DNA of 64,000 nucleotides from Planctomycetota bacterium (GTDB lineage Bacteria; Planctomycetota; UBA1135; GCA-002686595): positions 186,001 to 250,000 of the forward strand of contig JABABA010000001.1 of assembly GCA_014238415.1 (NCBI GenBank), written 5' to 3'. A model generated the notes under the pieces. That model was given only the letters and a program-made list of their open reading frames with translations, ran no database searches and was not told where the DNA came from. Shown in pieces: positions 4,273-59,773 of the stretch. The stretch's first letter is position 1; each line of letters starts with the position of its first letter. Position numbers and translations under genes: made by a program.

Positions 4273-6834
4273 ATGAAACTCTTCTCCCTTTTGACTTTCA
4301 CGCTCTTGATCCCAAACCTCCAGGCCAACGCCCAGGACGTGGTCTTTCCCCTGGAAACAGTCGGCCGCGAGGCTGCCCTGGACGGTCTGATCCTCGAGCC
4401 GGATCTGGCTGGAGTTGCGGAACTCTTGACCTACCAGACAGTTCGTATGACGCAGGTGCCCCTTTCCAGTGGCGGACTGGTCAGCGTGGATCTTGAGCGC
4501 CTTTCGGTCGCACGCCACGAGTTCGGCCTGCATGTGAACGGCGTACCGACCCCGGGACTGATCGAAAACCTGGGCCTGTCCGTCTGGAAGGGAACGGTCG
4601 TGGGCGCAACCGACAGCGATGTAATGCTGGCCTTTGCTCCCTATGGCTGCCGCGGTTGGATCAAGATCGGAGGGGAGTTGACTCACCTGATGCCCCAACC
4701 GGACGCCAATGGAGACTGGGGAGCGGGTCATGTCCTTCTGCTCACTGAAGAGGCCCTCAACTCACGAGGCTTTGCACTGGACGGAGACTGCTCCACCGCC
4801 ATTCAACCCAATGCGGGGAGTTCTTTCATCAGCAACCCCGGCGGGTTCGCTCCGCCCCAGGGGGCCCCCGGGGCCTGCAGTATGCGCGTCTGCCCGGTAG
4901 CCATCGAATGCGACGACCAGCTCTATGACATTTTCGGAGACCTGAACGCGGCCACGACCTACGTGACCACCCTGTGGTCCTTTATCGGCGACCGCTATGA
5001 AACTCAAGCCAACACGGTCCTGACTCATCCCTACTTGAACATCCCGACTCTCGGCAACGATCCCTGGACCACCCAAGAAACGGGCGGCAACAGCGTTGAT
5101 CTGCTCTATGAGTTTCAAGCTGCCTGGGTTGGCAACATTCCCAACGGCTGTGTCACCGCTCACTTCATGTCGGGGGCCGCACTCGGCGGAGGAGTCGCCT
5201 GGCTGGGCGTGCTTTGCAACGACACCTTCAACTTCGCCGTATCCGGCAACATCGGCGCCGGGGTCAACTTCCCAGTGGTCCAGCAGCCGTCCAACTGGGA
5301 CTTCATGGTCTGTGCCCACGAACTGGGGCACAACTTCAACAGTCCCCACACTCACGACTTCTGCCCTCCCTTGGACGAGTGCGCCCCGTCGGGATACTTT
5401 GGATCCTGCCAGACCCAACAGGTATGCACCAGCGCAGGCACGATCATGTCCTATTGCCATCTGTGCTCCGGAGGCACAGCAAACATAACCACCTTCTTCC
5501 ATCCCACGGCGGCGGGGGTCATGACACAACACGCGATCGCCTGCCTGGACACCTATGTAGATGCCAGCGCGGATGCCCCCAGCATCCTGGTTCCGGGTGT
5601 ACCCACCCCAGTAACCCTGACCACTACTGCAACCCCGACCAGCCCACCGAGTCTGCACTACAGCGCCACTGGCACGGGCTTCCAGGCGATCAGCATGACA
5701 CCCGGTGCCCCAGGAACCTGGAGCGCTGACATTCCCGCTGCGGCCTGCAGCGACACTCCTGCCTTCTATTACAGCTTGGACGATCCCTCCTGCGGCCTTA
5801 TCTTTCTCCCCGCAGGTGCCCCCGCTGCGGTCTACACGGCCCTGGTAGGAAACTCCATCACTTCGGTCTTTGATGACTGCGAGGTCCCAAGTGGCTGGAC
5901 AGCTGGTGTGCCAGGAGATGATGCAACCACAGGGATCTGGGAGCGTGTCAGCCCCGAGGGAACTCAAGCCGCCCCCGGAACGGACCACTCGCCCAGCGGA
6001 ACCCAATGCTGGGTGACTGGCCAGGGCGCGCCCGGCGGATCACTAGGTGCGGACGACGTAGACGGTGGGAGCACAACCTTGCTGACGCCGATTTATGACC
6101 TGACCGGGGGCAGCAACCCACTCATCTCCTACTGGCGCTGGTACTCCAACGACACCGGAGGCAGCCCCGCAGCGGACACCATGAATGTGGACATCTCCGA
6201 TGACGGGGGCGCATCCTGGGTGTCTCTGGAAGTTGTCGGGCCCACACAGGACTCCAGCGGGGGCTGGATCGAGGCGATCTTCACCCTGACCGATTTTGTC
6301 AATATCACATCTCAGGTACAGCTCAGGTTCGTGGCCAGCGACTTGGGAGGCGGTTCAATTGTGGAGGCGGCTATCGATGATCTTTGGATCAAGGATGTCT
6401 CCTGCAACTCTTCGGTGGGCGCGAACTACTGCACACCAGCAGTGTCCAACTCCAGCGGCTTGCCGGCAGGCATTGGCGGAACCGGGAGCGATGTGGCCAT
6501 GGCCAACAACCTGACCCTGACCGTGAGCGATCTGCCCAACGGACAATTCAGCTATTTCATCGCCAGCCAGAGTCAAGGAACCACCCCCAACCCGGGTGGC
6601 AGCCAAGGGGTGTTGTGCCTGGGTGCGCCGATTGCACGCTTCAATGCCAGTGTGCTGGTTGTCAGCGGAGGTCAGGTGAGCTTGAGTCCGGATCTGGGCC
6701 AGGTACCCCTGCCCCCTACATTCGCCCACACGGTTGTGGCGGGTGAGAGCTGGAACTTCCAGCTCTGGTTCCGGGACAACAACCCAGGCCCGACAAGCAA
6801 TTTCAGCGACGGGCTGACGATCACATTCCAGTGA
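4273..6834 (+). CDS. Secreted metzincin (M12-like) zinc metalloprotease with C-terminal sorting-type domain, copy 1
   Basis: This is a predicted exported zinc endopeptidase. The ATG at 4273 gives a good signal peptide (MKLFSLLTFTLLIPNLQANA); the upstream ORF extension to 4027 lacks one and overlaps the tRNA promoter side. Regions in order are: a propeptide-like segment (about 20-200); a catalytic domain with HELGHNFNSPHTHD near residue 349 and the Met-turn GTIMSYC near 390; an Ig-like/beta region; a jelly-roll or MAM-like domain (about 535-710, ending VEAAIDDLWIKD); and a C-terminal domain with NPGGSQGVLCLG and WNFQLWFRDNNPG. The motif HExxHxxxxxH is metzincin-type, but the Gly usual at the eighth position is Asn here, while the tandem paralogue keeps Gly. 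Substrate is unknown. It is probably scavenging or surface-attached. Confidence 0.85.
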   Translation: MKLFSLLTFTLLIPNLQANAQDVVFPLETVGREAALDGLILEPDLAGVAELLTYQTVRMTQVPLSSGGLVSVDLERLSVARHEFGLHVNGVPTPGLIENLGLSVWKGTVVGATDSDVMLAFAPYGCRGWIKIGGELTHLMPQPDANGDWGAGHVLLLTEEALNSRGFALDGDCSTAIQPNAGSSFISNPGGFAPPQGAPGACSMRVCPVAIECDDQLYDIFGDLNAATTYVTTLWSFIGDRYETQANTVLTHPYLNIPTLGNDPWTTQETGGNSVDLLYEFQAAWVGNIPNGCVTAHFMSGAALGGGVAWLGVLCNDTFNFAVSGNIGAGVNFPVVQQPSNWDFMVCAHELGHNFNSPHTHDFCPPLDECAPSGYFGSCQTQQVCTSAGTIMSYCHLCSGGTANITTFFHPTAAGVMTQHAIACLDTYVDASADAPSILVPGVPTPVTLTTTATPTSPPSLHYSATGTGFQAISMTPGAPGTWSADIPAAACSDTPAFYYSLDDPSCGLIFLPAGAPAAVYTALVGNSITSVFDDCEVPSGWTAGVPGDDATTGIWERVSPEGTQAAPGTDHSPSGTQCWVTGQGAPGGSLGADDVDGGSTTLLTPIYDLTGGSNPLISYWRWYSNDTGGSPAADTMNVDISDDGGASWVSLEVVGPTQDSSGGWIEAIFTLTDFVNITSQVQLRFVASDLGGGSIVEAAIDDLWIKDVSCNSSVGANYCTPAVSNSSGLPAGIGGTGSDVAMANNLTLTVSDLPNGQFSYFIASQSQGTTPNPGGSQGVLCLGAPIARFNASVLVVSGGQVSLSPDLGQVPLPPTFAHTVVAGESWNFQLWFRDNNPGPTSNFSDGLTITFQ

Positions 6835-28953: not shown

Positions 28954-29934
28954 ATGCCGAGAGCAGACGACTATTTTCAGAGCTACACCGACCCAGGTGT
29001 GCACCGTTTGATGATCCAGGACACGGTACGCACGGAAGCCTACCGGGACGCGCTCAGCGAGTTGATCCAGCCGGGAATGGAAGTCGTGGACGTAGGCTCT
29101 GGATCTGGAATCCTTTCCCTCTTTGCCGCACAAGCCGGCGCAGGGCGAGTCCACGCGGTGGAGGCCTCCAGCATGGCACCGGTGATCGAGGCTCTGGCCA
29201 AGGCCAATAACTACGAGAACATCATCAAGGTCCACCACTGCCGGGCAGAGGACCTGCAACTTGATGGCAAGGTGGATCTGATCGTCTCCGAGTGGATGGG
29301 ATATTTTGGCATCGCCGAACGGATGTTTGAGTCCGTACTCGATGTTCGCGACCGCTTTCTTGCAGAAGACGGGCGCATGGTGCCCGACCGCTTCCGCCTG
29401 AAACTGTTCCCCATCCAGGACGAGGGGCTGCATCAGGTTCATGGCCCCGGATCCTGGGATGACCCGGTCTACGGGTTCGACTTCGGGCCCCTCAGGGAAT
29501 ACGAATATGCGGAGCTCGTCACTACCGCCCCCACGATCCTGCCCAGCGGAGCCCTGGGACCCCACATGTCCCTGCTCGACCTTGATCTGGAATTCTGCAG
29601 CGCAGAGGATTTCTTCTTTGACCAGAAAATCGAGTTGCCCATCGAGTGCAAGGGAACGGTGCAGGGGATAGGGGGCTATTTCGAGGTGGACCTCGCCCCG
29701 GAAACCTCCCTGACCTGCGCTCCCGAAGCCCCCGCCACCCACTGGCGTCAGTCCTGGTTCCCGGTGCGCCCCTTCCCGGTTTGCTGCGGTGACAAACTGG
29801 AGCTGACCATGCAAGCGGTGCCGCGCTTTGAGGGGGACATCCGGCTGCCCGACTACTTGATGGACGGGGCTCTGATGCGAGCCGGTAAACTTGAACACAG
29901 TTTCTTCCATCGACATCTTGGCAGCTACGAATAG
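28954..29934 (+). CDS. Protein arginine N-methyltransferase (eukaryote-like type I PRMT)
   Basis: Class I SAM-dependent methyltransferase with the full PRMT motif set in 326 aa. N-terminal helix: DDYFQSYTDPGVHRLMIQDTVRT, matching the PRMT1 YFxxY...M..D.VRT segment. SAM motif I: VVDVGSGSGILSLFAAQAGA. Motif II acid: VEAS. Double-E loop: SEWMGYFGIAERMFESVL, with both Glu at PRMT1 spacing. Following: RDRFLAEDGRMVPDR. THW loop: APATHWRQSW. Together these predict transfer of methyl groups to protein arginine, type I-like (asymmetric) by residue context. The beta-barrel region is present but short. Substrates are unknown. A 47-bp gap separates it from a downstream membrane-protein gene of unknown function. 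Family known mainly from eukaryotes; bacterial examples are rare as far as I know. Confidence 0.93.
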   Translation: MPRADDYFQSYTDPGVHRLMIQDTVRTEAYRDALSELIQPGMEVVDVGSGSGILSLFAAQAGAGRVHAVEASSMAPVIEALAKANNYENIIKVHHCRAEDLQLDGKVDLIVSEWMGYFGIAERMFESVLDVRDRFLAEDGRMVPDRFRLKLFPIQDEGLHQVHGPGSWDDPVYGFDFGPLREYEYAELVTTAPTILPSGALGPHMSLLDLDLEFCSAEDFFFDQKIELPIECKGTVQGIGGYFEVDLAPETSLTCAPEAPATHWRQSWFPVRPFPVCCGDKLELTMQAVPRFEGDIRLPDYLMDGALMRAGKLEHSFFHRHLGSYE

Positions 29935-29981: not shown

Positions 29982-30743
29982 ATGAGCAGCACACAAACCG
30001 ACCCCGGGCCCCAGCCCTCCGAGGATGCACCCGACAAGTCAAAGCGGTCCAAAGAGTCGGTCTGGGAGGTCTACTGGCCCAAGAAGATTGACGGGCATCG
30101 GGAGGCGCTGACCGTGGCTTCATTTCCGCCGATCATCTATTTCTGGCCGACCATGGTGATGTTGCTGGCCGGTGGCCTGCTGCAGAGCCTGGGTTTGACT
30201 TCCGAAGTCACGATCGGATGGCTGGTGAGCGCCACTCTGACCTTCAACCTCTTGGTGACCGTGGTGGACCTGGACCAGAAGAAGTTCGTCATCAGCCTCT
30301 TGGTCCTGGCTCTGGTGTGCATCGGGTTGTGGGTCGCCCACGACAAACAGTGGGCAATCCTCGGGGCCTTCACAGTCTGGCTCGGAGGACTCGAACCCAG
30401 CTACAACACGGACACCCTCTTCCTGTTGCTGGCGGCAATCTCTTCGCTCTTCGTAATTGGCATGATGCGGCCACGGCTCAATTACTGGCGCTTTGAACCC
30501 AATGAGTTCACACATTACGTGCAGCCCTTTGGCAGAGAGCAGAGCATTCCCCGCGCTGGCAGCACCGTTACCCGAGAGGTACCGGACATGCTGGAGTTGA
30601 TCCTGCTCCTCGGCGGCGGATCCCTGGTTGTGCGACGGGAAGGTCAAGTCGTTGCGCGCATCGAGCATGTGCCCTTCTTGGGACGCCGCATGCCAGCCCT
30701 TGAAGCCATGCTCGGCGTGACGCGCGTGCAGCACGTGGACTGA
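29982..30743 (+). CDS. Multi-pass membrane protein of unknown function
   Basis: The protein has 253 aa and an acidic/basic disordered N-terminus (SSTQTDPGPQPSEDAPDKSKRSKES). Four hydrophobic segments follow (IIYFWPTMVMLLAGGLL, VSATLTFNLLVTVVDL, VISLLVLALVCIGLWVA, TLFLLLAAISSLFVIGMM) and a soluble C-terminal domain of about 90 residues (LNYWRFEPNEFTHYVQPFGREQSIPRAGSTV...LGVTRVQHVD). I do not recognise the family. It lies between the PRMT (47 bp upstream) and the M18 aminopeptidase (31 bp downstream), all in one direction, suggesting one operon. Confidence 0.65.
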   Translation: MSSTQTDPGPQPSEDAPDKSKRSKESVWEVYWPKKIDGHREALTVASFPPIIYFWPTMVMLLAGGLLQSLGLTSEVTIGWLVSATLTFNLLVTVVDLDQKKFVISLLVLALVCIGLWVAHDKQWAILGAFTVWLGGLEPSYNTDTLFLLLAAISSLFVIGMMRPRLNYWRFEPNEFTHYVQPFGREQSIPRAGSTVTREVPDMLELILLLGGGSLVVRREGQVVARIEHVPFLGRRMPALEAMLGVTRVQHVD

Positions 30744-30774: not shown

Positions 30775-32073
30775 ATGCTAGACCCCGACCTGGCCCAGAG
30801 CGAAGACCTTGCTGCCCTGATCAACGCATCCCCCAGCCCCCGGCTGGCCTGCAAAGAAGTGGCAGGACGATTGAGTCAGGCAGGCTTTCAAGAACTTGAG
30901 GACCGCGACTCTTGGGCCGACATTGAGGGTGGATGGTTTGTGCGCCGAGCCGGATCCCTGCATGCCGGCTTCGAGCCGCCGAACTTGGACAAGGCCGGCG
31001 GTTTTCGCCTACTTGGGGCCCACACGGACAGCCCCAACCTGCGGCTCAAGCCCAAGCCGGACAGTGGCCGAGCCGGTTACCGCCAGTTGGGCGTTGAGAT
31101 CTACGGGGGGGCACTGCTGAACTCTTGGCTGGACAGGGACCTGGGAATCTCCGGAACGGTCTGGATCGATGGAGACAGTCAGCCCACTGCACTGGATTTT
31201 CACTTCGATGAACCCCTGCTGCGGGTGCCTCAACTGGCAATCCATCTGCATCCGGAATTGCGAAAGGATGGCCTGAGGCTCAACCCCCAACAGCACCTCT
31301 CCCCAGTCTTTGGCCTAGGCGTTCAACGCGAGGGAGTCTTCAAGGAGTGGCTCTGTGATCGATTGGAGGTCAACCCAAAGGACACGCTCTCCTTCGAGAT
31401 CATGACCCACGACCTGACTCCCGCTCGCCTGACGGGACCCAACCAGGAGTTCCTCAGTGCCCCCCGGCTGGACAACCTGCTCTCAACCTGGGCCGCAACC
31501 ATGAGCCTGCTGGAGTGTGCGCAAAAGGGCACAGAGCGGGCCACTGTGATCACCCTGTTCGACCACGAGGAAGTCGGGTCCGGCTCACGCAGCGGAGCCC
31601 AGGGGCCCCATCTGCGCCAGATACTTGAGCGATTGATAATGCAACGGGGTGGGCAACGTGAGGACTACCTACGCGCTTTGGCGGACACGATCTGCGTCTC
31701 TGCCGACATGGCCCACGCAGTGCACCCCAACTACGCCGACAAGCACGACCCGCACCATCAGGTAGCGCTCAACGGAGGTCCTGTGATCAAGGTCAATCAG
31801 AATCTGCGTTACGCCTCAGAGGGCGAGACCCAGGCGCTCTTCGAACGGGCTTGCCGCAAGGCTGAAGTGCCCTTCCAAAAGTGGGCCATGCGATCCGACA
31901 TGGCCTGCGGCTCAACTATTGGGCCCCTGACCGCAATGAACCTGGGAATTGGCGTGGTGGATGTTGGCTGCCCCCAACTTGCCATGCACAGCGCCCGGGA
32001 GTTCGGTGGTTCAGGTGACCCGGGCTGGATGGTGGCTGCCATGAGCGCCTTCTGCGGTGCCGGCGAGGGGTGA
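30775..32073 (+). CDS. apeB: M18-family aminopeptidase (aspartyl aminopeptidase-like)
   Basis: This dinuclear zinc aminopeptidase, probably cytoplasmic, cleaves acidic or other N-terminal residues from peptides. Family signatures are in order: GAHTDSPNLRLKPKP (first zinc His/Asp, about 82-96), YGGALLNSWLDRDLG (bridging Asp, about 110-124), DHEEVGSGSRSGAQG (Glu pair, about 262-276), MAHAVHPNYADKHDP, GGPVIKVNQNLRY and MACGSTIGPLTAMNLGI, ending MHSAREFGGSGDPGWM. The length of 432 aa is usual for M18. It is the third gene in the direction of the PRMT. It ends 8 bp from the convergent SUI1-like gene. Confidence 0.95.
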   Translation: MLDPDLAQSEDLAALINASPSPRLACKEVAGRLSQAGFQELEDRDSWADIEGGWFVRRAGSLHAGFEPPNLDKAGGFRLLGAHTDSPNLRLKPKPDSGRAGYRQLGVEIYGGALLNSWLDRDLGISGTVWIDGDSQPTALDFHFDEPLLRVPQLAIHLHPELRKDGLRLNPQQHLSPVFGLGVQREGVFKEWLCDRLEVNPKDTLSFEIMTHDLTPARLTGPNQEFLSAPRLDNLLSTWAATMSLLECAQKGTERATVITLFDHEEVGSGSRSGAQGPHLRQILERLIMQRGGQREDYLRALADTICVSADMAHAVHPNYADKHDPHHQVALNGGPVIKVNQNLRYASEGETQALFERACRKAEVPFQKWAMRSDMACGSTIGPLTAMNLGIGVVDVGCPQLAMHSAREFGGSGDPGWMVAAMSAFCGAGEG

Positions 32074-58984: not shown

Positions 58985-59422
58985 CTAAGAATCCAGGACC
59001 TGCTGAGCAAGTTCCTTGCGAAGGGCCACGTTGGCCACAAAGATCGCGCGCATGGCGGCCGCATGGCGCTTGCCAGTCTTGCGATCGCGCCCGGGGATCA
59101 AGGTTCGCGGAGGGGGCACAGGCTTGAGAACAGACCGTGAACCGAGTGAACTTCTCAGGCTCTCCAGTTCACTCGCTTGATCCTCTACCCTCCGCATCAG
59201 GCTGACTAGCCGCTTTTGGAGCTTCTGATCCGGTTCCCTTCTGTCATGTGGACCCTTGGCACGTGGAGCCGTTGAAGGAACCCGTTTTTCAGCTTCAGGG
59301 GCTTCCGTACGAGCCGGAACCAACATCCAGGAGCCCTCTCTGGAGCCAGCAAGCGGGCGTGAGGGGCGCTCTAGGACGATCGGGTGGATCACCCGCATAG
59401 GTGCTTTGGGGCGGCGAAACAT
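58985..59422 (-). CDS. Basic coiled-coil protein preceding the MamK-like gene, function unknown
   Basis: From the ATG at 59422 the 145-aa protein (MFRRPKAPMRVIHPIVLERPSRPL...) is rich in Arg, Lys and Pro with a coiled-coil core (KLQKRLVSLMRRVEDQASELESLRSSLGS) and a C-terminal helix (MRAIFVANVALRKELAQQVLDS). The track start at 59542 adds 40 less plausible residues. No family is recognised. Position and high charge make it a candidate accessory factor for the actin-like filament. Confidence 0.5.
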   Translation of the reverse strand: MFRRPKAPMRVIHPIVLERPSRPLAGSREGSWMLVPARTEAPEAEKRVPSTAPRAKGPHDRREPDQKLQKRLVSLMRRVEDQASELESLRSSLGSRSVLKPVPPPRTLIPGRDRKTGKRHAAAMRAIFVANVALRKELAQQVLDS

Positions 59423-59773
59423 GGCAGGAGGTACCAGGAATACCCTATTTGCCACAATCCGTGTTGTTCCCAGGGGCTTTTTTGAATCAAGAAAAGCAAT
59501 CAAGCCCATCCAGTGCACGGAGTCGGCCGGACCGGTCCTCAAATTGCGGGCATTTCCCCTTCTTCACAAGCCCGGGAGCAAGGCAGTGACTGGTCCCTGG
59601 CCGAGCAAGATGCTTCCCCAGGCGCGCCTCTCAGAGGAGACTGACCCTGTGAAAGGACCACCGGAACGCTTGGTCTGAACCTGCAACCCTATCCCAGTGC
59701 TTCCGGCGTCCGAGGCTTGAAAGTCCAGGGCCCTGTGGGACCATTCCCTCGGGAGCACAAGGCCAGGCGCGGT
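59423..59773. other. Intergenic stretch upstream of the coiled-coil gene
   Basis: About 350 bases between the NodT stop and the coiled-coil start (both minus). It includes the optional N-terminal extension. I see no clear terminator, RNA or repeats. Confidence 0.35.

Follow-up and report, generated by a model that had tools for sequence, protein, structure and literature searches.

Arginine methylation of type I counts as a eukaryotic trait of unsettled origin. The closest described relatives of the enzyme reported here are the eukaryotic type I protein arginine methyltransferases (PRMTs): PRMT1 and PRMT8, PRMT2, PRMT3, PRMT4/CARM1, PRMT6 and plant PRMT10. The double-E loop of PRMTs follows the consensus SExMGxxLxxExM, and the functions that we ascribe to this loop and to the THW motif come from the same source (PMC12153873). 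A more distant PRMT-type S-adenosylmethionine (SAM) domain is found inside megasynthases, where LynB3-OMT of a non-ribosomal peptide synthetase (NRPS) is described as similar to arginine methyltransferases, with tyrosine O-methylation presumed (PMC10127204). Our literature search returned no paper on planctomycete PRMTs or on a 'bacterial PRMT', and claims of novelty are limited to the literature searched. In a 64,000-nucleotide stretch of planctomycete DNA (the window), we identify a gene whose product shares with the eukaryotic type I enzymes the whole-length fold, the spacing of the double-E loop, the THW loop, the YFxSY/R54 helix, the type I methionine pair and a barrel with a dimerisation arm region. 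It differs from them in sequence (about 30% identity), in forming a sister clade outside the tested subfamilies, in carrying Gly/Ala for the double-E leucine, in having no accessory domain and in its place in a putative bacterial operon. We put at about 70% the probability that this is a functional bacterial type I-like PRMT, predicted to be dimeric and encoded in a putative operon that also holds genes for a membrane protein and an M18 aminopeptidase. The protein appears to be a known kind of enzyme in an unusual host, with an informative tree position, whose PRMT catalysis we infer.

The open reading frame runs from an ATG start to a TAG stop (Table 1), its translation is as originally predicted, and every PRMT element listed in that prediction could be located: YFQSY at residue 7, MIQDTVR at 20–26, the post-I segment VHAVE ending at E70 (the acidic post-I residue), motif III LAEDGRMVP at residue 136, and the double-E and THW loops. 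The double-E claim holds for both glutamates, E113 and E122, whose spacing of 9 is the same as in PRMT1; the consensus leucine mid-loop is instead glycine. When the residues of the protein were shuffled 200,000 times, the double-E loop on its own arose in 23 cases; the decisive statistics for PRMT identity are the full-length matches to the PDB and Pfam. Residues 3–301 match PRMT8 and PRMT1 best in the PDB (phmmer, PRMT8 E 2.5e-43), all the PDB sequence matches listed are PRMTs, and the Pfam PRMT_C match (PF22528, E 1.2e-14) exceeds the family cut-off and recurs in 12 of 12 aligned orthologues. No NCBIfam PRMT model was found among the best 25 matches listed for this protein. The NCBIfam PrmA models cover its SAM domain only, with scores at a fraction of their cut-offs (TIGR00406, 33.5 bits against 183 bits), and we reject identity with PrmA, the ribosomal protein L11 methyltransferase. 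Nothing in the source genome scores as PrmA above the TIGR00406 cut-off, and the PRMT itself gives the best partial match there.

Table 1. Features of the PRMT locus, in window coordinates
Feature	Position	Strand	Description and basis
PRMT gene, 326 aa	28954..29934	+	PRMT1-like class I SAM-dependent protein arginine N-methyltransferase (sequence, profile, fold)
Motif I, SAM-binding loop VVDVGSGSG, residues 44-52	29083..29109	+	Glycines invariant in 12-orthologue alignment
Double-E loop SEWMGYFGIAERM, residues 112-124	29287..29325	+	E113, E122 and M124 invariant in alignment
PRMT_C beta-barrel/oligomerisation subdomain including dimerisation arm region, residues 166-290	29449..29823	+	PF22528 match, fold
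THW loop, residues 262-264	29737..29745	+	H263; sequence alignment and orthologue conservation
Membrane protein, 253 aa, no Pfam family	29982..30743	+	Conserved Arg-containing C-terminal half
M18 aminopeptidase, third gene of putative operon	30775..32073	+	PF02127, E 3.2e-119; synteny

The AlphaFold (AF2) model of the PRMT, built from a 12-sequence alignment, has a mean pLDDT of 91.5. Its closest Foldseek matches in the PDB are PRMT8, PRMT2, PRMT1, Trypanosoma brucei PRMT1, plant PRMT10, PRMT6 and PRMT3, with full-chain TM scores of 0.8–0.9. The comparison with PRMT1 proposed in the original prediction yields a whole-chain superposition: TM 0.88–0.91 and 30% identity to human PRMT8/PRMT1, C-terminal barrel included, and about 0.9 for PRMT8 across 319 columns. 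Full-length sequence match, profile, fold and active-site residues together bear out the view that the protein goes beyond generic methyltransferase similarity.

Conservation of the active site extends across the family. All 16 family sequences have the double-E loop and THW, and among the 12 orthologues in the alignment, the most divergent of them 41% identical, THWRQS (residues 262–267) is invariant, as are Y7, Y11, M20, R26, E113, E122, M124 and H263. Mapped through the PDB phmmer alignment, we take these to be equivalent to PRMT1 Y35, Y39, M48, R54, E144, E153, M155 and H293, respectively. The consensus double-E leucine is replaced by Gly or Ala in 16/16 family sequences, a substitution that appears to mark this clade against the eukaryotic type I enzymes. 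The enzyme would bind SAM at motif I and E70; E113 and E122 would hold the guanidinium of the substrate arginine in a pocket completed by H263 of THW, Y11 and R26. It would then transfer one or two methyl groups, with asymmetric dimethylarginine as the probable product. The model is of a monomer, and dimerisation would proceed via the arm and barrel, as in PRMT1. The fold alone gives no product type, and bacterial PRMT7-like proteins exist; even so, a type II or type III enzyme, forming symmetric dimethylarginine or only monomethylarginine, seems unlikely, given that the type I features M20 and M124 (M48 and M155 of PRMT1) and THW are invariant, that the structures nearest to it belong to type I enzymes and that PRMT7 separates in the tree (100/99). 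A specifically PRMT7-type (type III) identity we reject, as the protein lies outside the PRMT7 group and carries the type I THW. The T. brucei enzyme–prozyme complex (6dnz) among the Foldseek matches raises another reading, in which the protein is a catalytically dead PRMT-like scaffold or prozyme. We consider this improbable: the SAM and acceptor residues are all invariant, purifying selection is strong, and we found no second close copy in the source genome with which it could pair.

The PRMT gene is under strong purifying selection, with dN about 0.028, dS about 0.37 and dN/dS about 0.07 against a 95%-identical orthologue, which itself sits on a contig of a Planctomycetota metagenome-assembled genome. 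Orthologues share 75–95% identity within the genus and 41–59% in other genera of the family. They occur in 27 of the family's 81 genomes, one of which (G454) is a single contig; two thirds of the family do without the gene, which is therefore dispensable. The source assembly is fragmented (84 contigs), as would suit eukaryotic contamination, an explanation that the original prediction had judged unlikely. With conserved synteny around orthologues in several genera, one of them on the single-contig genome, even GC throughout the window and bacterial neighbours, contamination is excluded. Some genomes of the order carry divergent second PRMT-like paralogues (L072 at G007:C99:24693-25472, L114 and L117), and the G007 contig that carries L072 has one more weak methyltransferase match, about 2 kb away from it.

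Downstream, the PRMT, membrane-protein and M18 genes follow one another on the same strand with gaps of 47 and 31 bases, and no terminator-like site was found on the + strand in either gap. The trio, or a pair from it, is retained in four genera (g1, g14, g11 and g23): the membrane-protein gene adjoins that for the PRMT in g1, g14 and g23, and the M18 gene adjoins one or other of these two in g1, g14 and g11. This chromosomal PRMT, retained by some members of a single planctomycete family, is thus probably co-transcribed with the membrane protein and the aminopeptidase, which would make a membrane-associated or general cytoplasmic protein a likelier target than a natural product. Across the 81 genomes, PRMT and membrane protein occur together in 21, PRMT alone in 6, membrane protein alone in 7 and neither in 47 (Fisher p 1.2e-8 over genomes and 8e-4 at genus level, in tests that ignore shared ancestry), and the co-occurrence includes genomes in which the genes are non-adjacent. 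The strongly conserved C-terminal half of the membrane protein (GREQSIPRAGSTVTRE, FLGRRM) contains many invariant arginines, making it a candidate substrate or partner of the PRMT. Its predicted structure is of too low quality for use (pLDDT 45).

A PRMT fold is no guarantee of an arginine acceptor, since for the NRPS domains the presumed acceptor is a tyrosine hydroxyl (PMC10127204), and the planctomycete enzyme could likewise have been re-purposed for small molecules or natural products. Besides LynB3-OMT, with its resemblance to arginine methyltransferases, this reading can draw on a distant PRMT-like domain that we detect in a plasmid-borne Nostoc NRPS (L061, about 5000–5450; best Pfam methyltransferase match PRMT5, PF05185) and on one orthologue (L069) that neighbours another methyltransferase and a PLP decarboxylase. 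The Nostoc domain, however, gives no PRMT_C match and has no THW in the aligned region, whereas the planctomycete enzyme invariably keeps barrel, both glutamates and THW. The genes around the PRMT and its orthologues are moreover mostly of housekeeping type (citrate synthase, M18 peptidase, ABC ATPase, transporter) rather than biosynthetic, which argues against a natural-product role. We regard such re-purposing as unlikely and favour a protein arginine methyltransferase.

PRMT-type enzymes extend beyond eukaryotes, and the original statement that they are almost confined to them was too strong: PRMT_C is found in 23 of 392 Planctomycetota genomes (0 of 14 controls), and PRMT7-like genes lie on plasmids of Pantoea, Tropicibacter and Rhizobium (L056, L057 and L060, respectively). 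The further Planctomycetota PRMT_C proteins (f17, f18, f26 and f71) resemble the window PRMT in having the barrel, THW in most and the two glutamates in part. They differ in that SETLG or another loop sequence is found in most, THW or the second glutamate is missing from some, and all but f26 are more distant from the window PRMT and from eukaryotic PRMTs. The proteobacterial plasmid proteins likewise belong to the PRMT superfamily, but they group with PRMT7 (100/99), have no THW and share 24–32% identity. Among the bacteria sampled, the full type I signature thus appears only in the planctomycete clade of the window PRMT and, in part, in f26. Annotation hides such genes: the Pantoea and Tropicibacter copies are labelled '50S ribosomal protein L11 methyltransferase', that is PrmA, though their SAM domain alone matches it. 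Another Rhizobium plasmid match (H3) carries the annotation of a tetratricopeptide repeat protein, reminiscent of the repeats in PRMT9. The sequence patterns used found no PRMT relatives in phages or IMG/VR, and viral folds match the model weakly (whole-chain TM about 0.6 at best); we reject a viral origin.

Phylogenetic trees (IQ-TREE, midpoint-rooted) sampled Planctomycetota, plasmids and solved eukaryotic structures. In the first, of 45 rows, the seven eukaryotic type I PRMTs (PRMT1/2/3/4/6/8/10) form one group (support 100/100), as do the planctomycete PRMTs of f1 and f26 (95/91). These two groups join with support of 96/97, leaving outside the other planctomycete PRMT-like proteins and the PRMT7 group, which includes the proteobacterial plasmid sequences. 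The phylogeny suggested in the original prediction hence places the window PRMT as sister to the sampled eukaryotic type I enzymes. Altered sampling in a second tree gave 97/97 for the joining node and weaker support for f1 with f26 (85/77). Approximately unbiased (AU) tests reject placement of the planctomycete PRMTs with PRMT1/3/8 (p 0.0015) and with plant PRMT10 (p 0.0005); they do not reject f1 alone or f26 alone as sister of the eukaryotes, nor a topology that puts the planctomycete PRMT-like proteins all on one side (p 0.15). The f1 and f26 clade therefore appears to be the closest sampled bacterial relative of eukaryotic type I PRMTs, a placement that a closer relative elsewhere could change.

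Of the two origins originally offered, horizontal transfer and an ancient planctomycete gene, a recent transfer from the eukaryotic subfamilies tested is, within our sampling, contradicted by the lack of nesting. The ancient gene fits better, but there may also have been a very old transfer, to or from eukaryotes. In one such course, which concerns origin and is compatible with type I PRMT function, planctomycetes would have acquired a stem or early eukaryotic type I PRMT that then evolved in bacteria for a long time. The sister position of f1 and f26, with other bacterial PRMT-like proteins outside, and the patchy distribution (27/81), as expected from transfer and losses, speak for it; the absence of nesting within the tested subfamilies, the deep divergence among planctomycetes, the presence of this PRMT type in two planctomycete families and the unrejected one-sided tree, under the sampling given above, speak against, and we hold it to be possible but doubtful. 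Equally tentative is the proposal that eukaryotic type I PRMTs descend from a planctomycete-type PRMT, or have a bacterial ancestor in common with it, and that true dimethylation of protein arginine persists in these bacteria, possibly on the membrane protein encoded next door. As a member of the closest sampled bacterial clade, the planctomycete PRMT could help to show the origin of eukaryotic arginine methylation. A bacterial sister clade of the eukaryotic enzymes with a complete type I active site offers a testable outgroup with which to root the PRMT tree, and a single-copy bacterial system in which to ask what arginine methylation does without histones or RGG-rich splicing factors.

We found no RGG-rich, eukaryote-style substrate set in the source genome. 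The RGG-RGG DNA pattern occurs 6 times there against 3 for a reversed-pattern control, not a clear enrichment, and across the 81 genomes it is weakly enriched in PRMT-positive relatives (p 0.09). RGG-repeat substrates were rejected: the in-frame matches include a signal-peptide-like protein and a protein with an Arg/Gly-rich linker, and no recognisable RNA-binding proteins. The methylarginine-degrading enzyme DDAH is absent from the source genome and shows no visible association with the PRMT. An Arg-rich protein at 58985-59542, originally put forward as a local substrate, is a weak candidate: it begins at TTG, has 25 Arg among its 185 aa, lacks RGG repeats and belongs to no Pfam family. This reading frame may not be a gene. 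The signal-peptide-like protein L082/L083 (G000:C12, about 22500) has two RGG-rich stretches and is a possible candidate for methylation, though probably exported.
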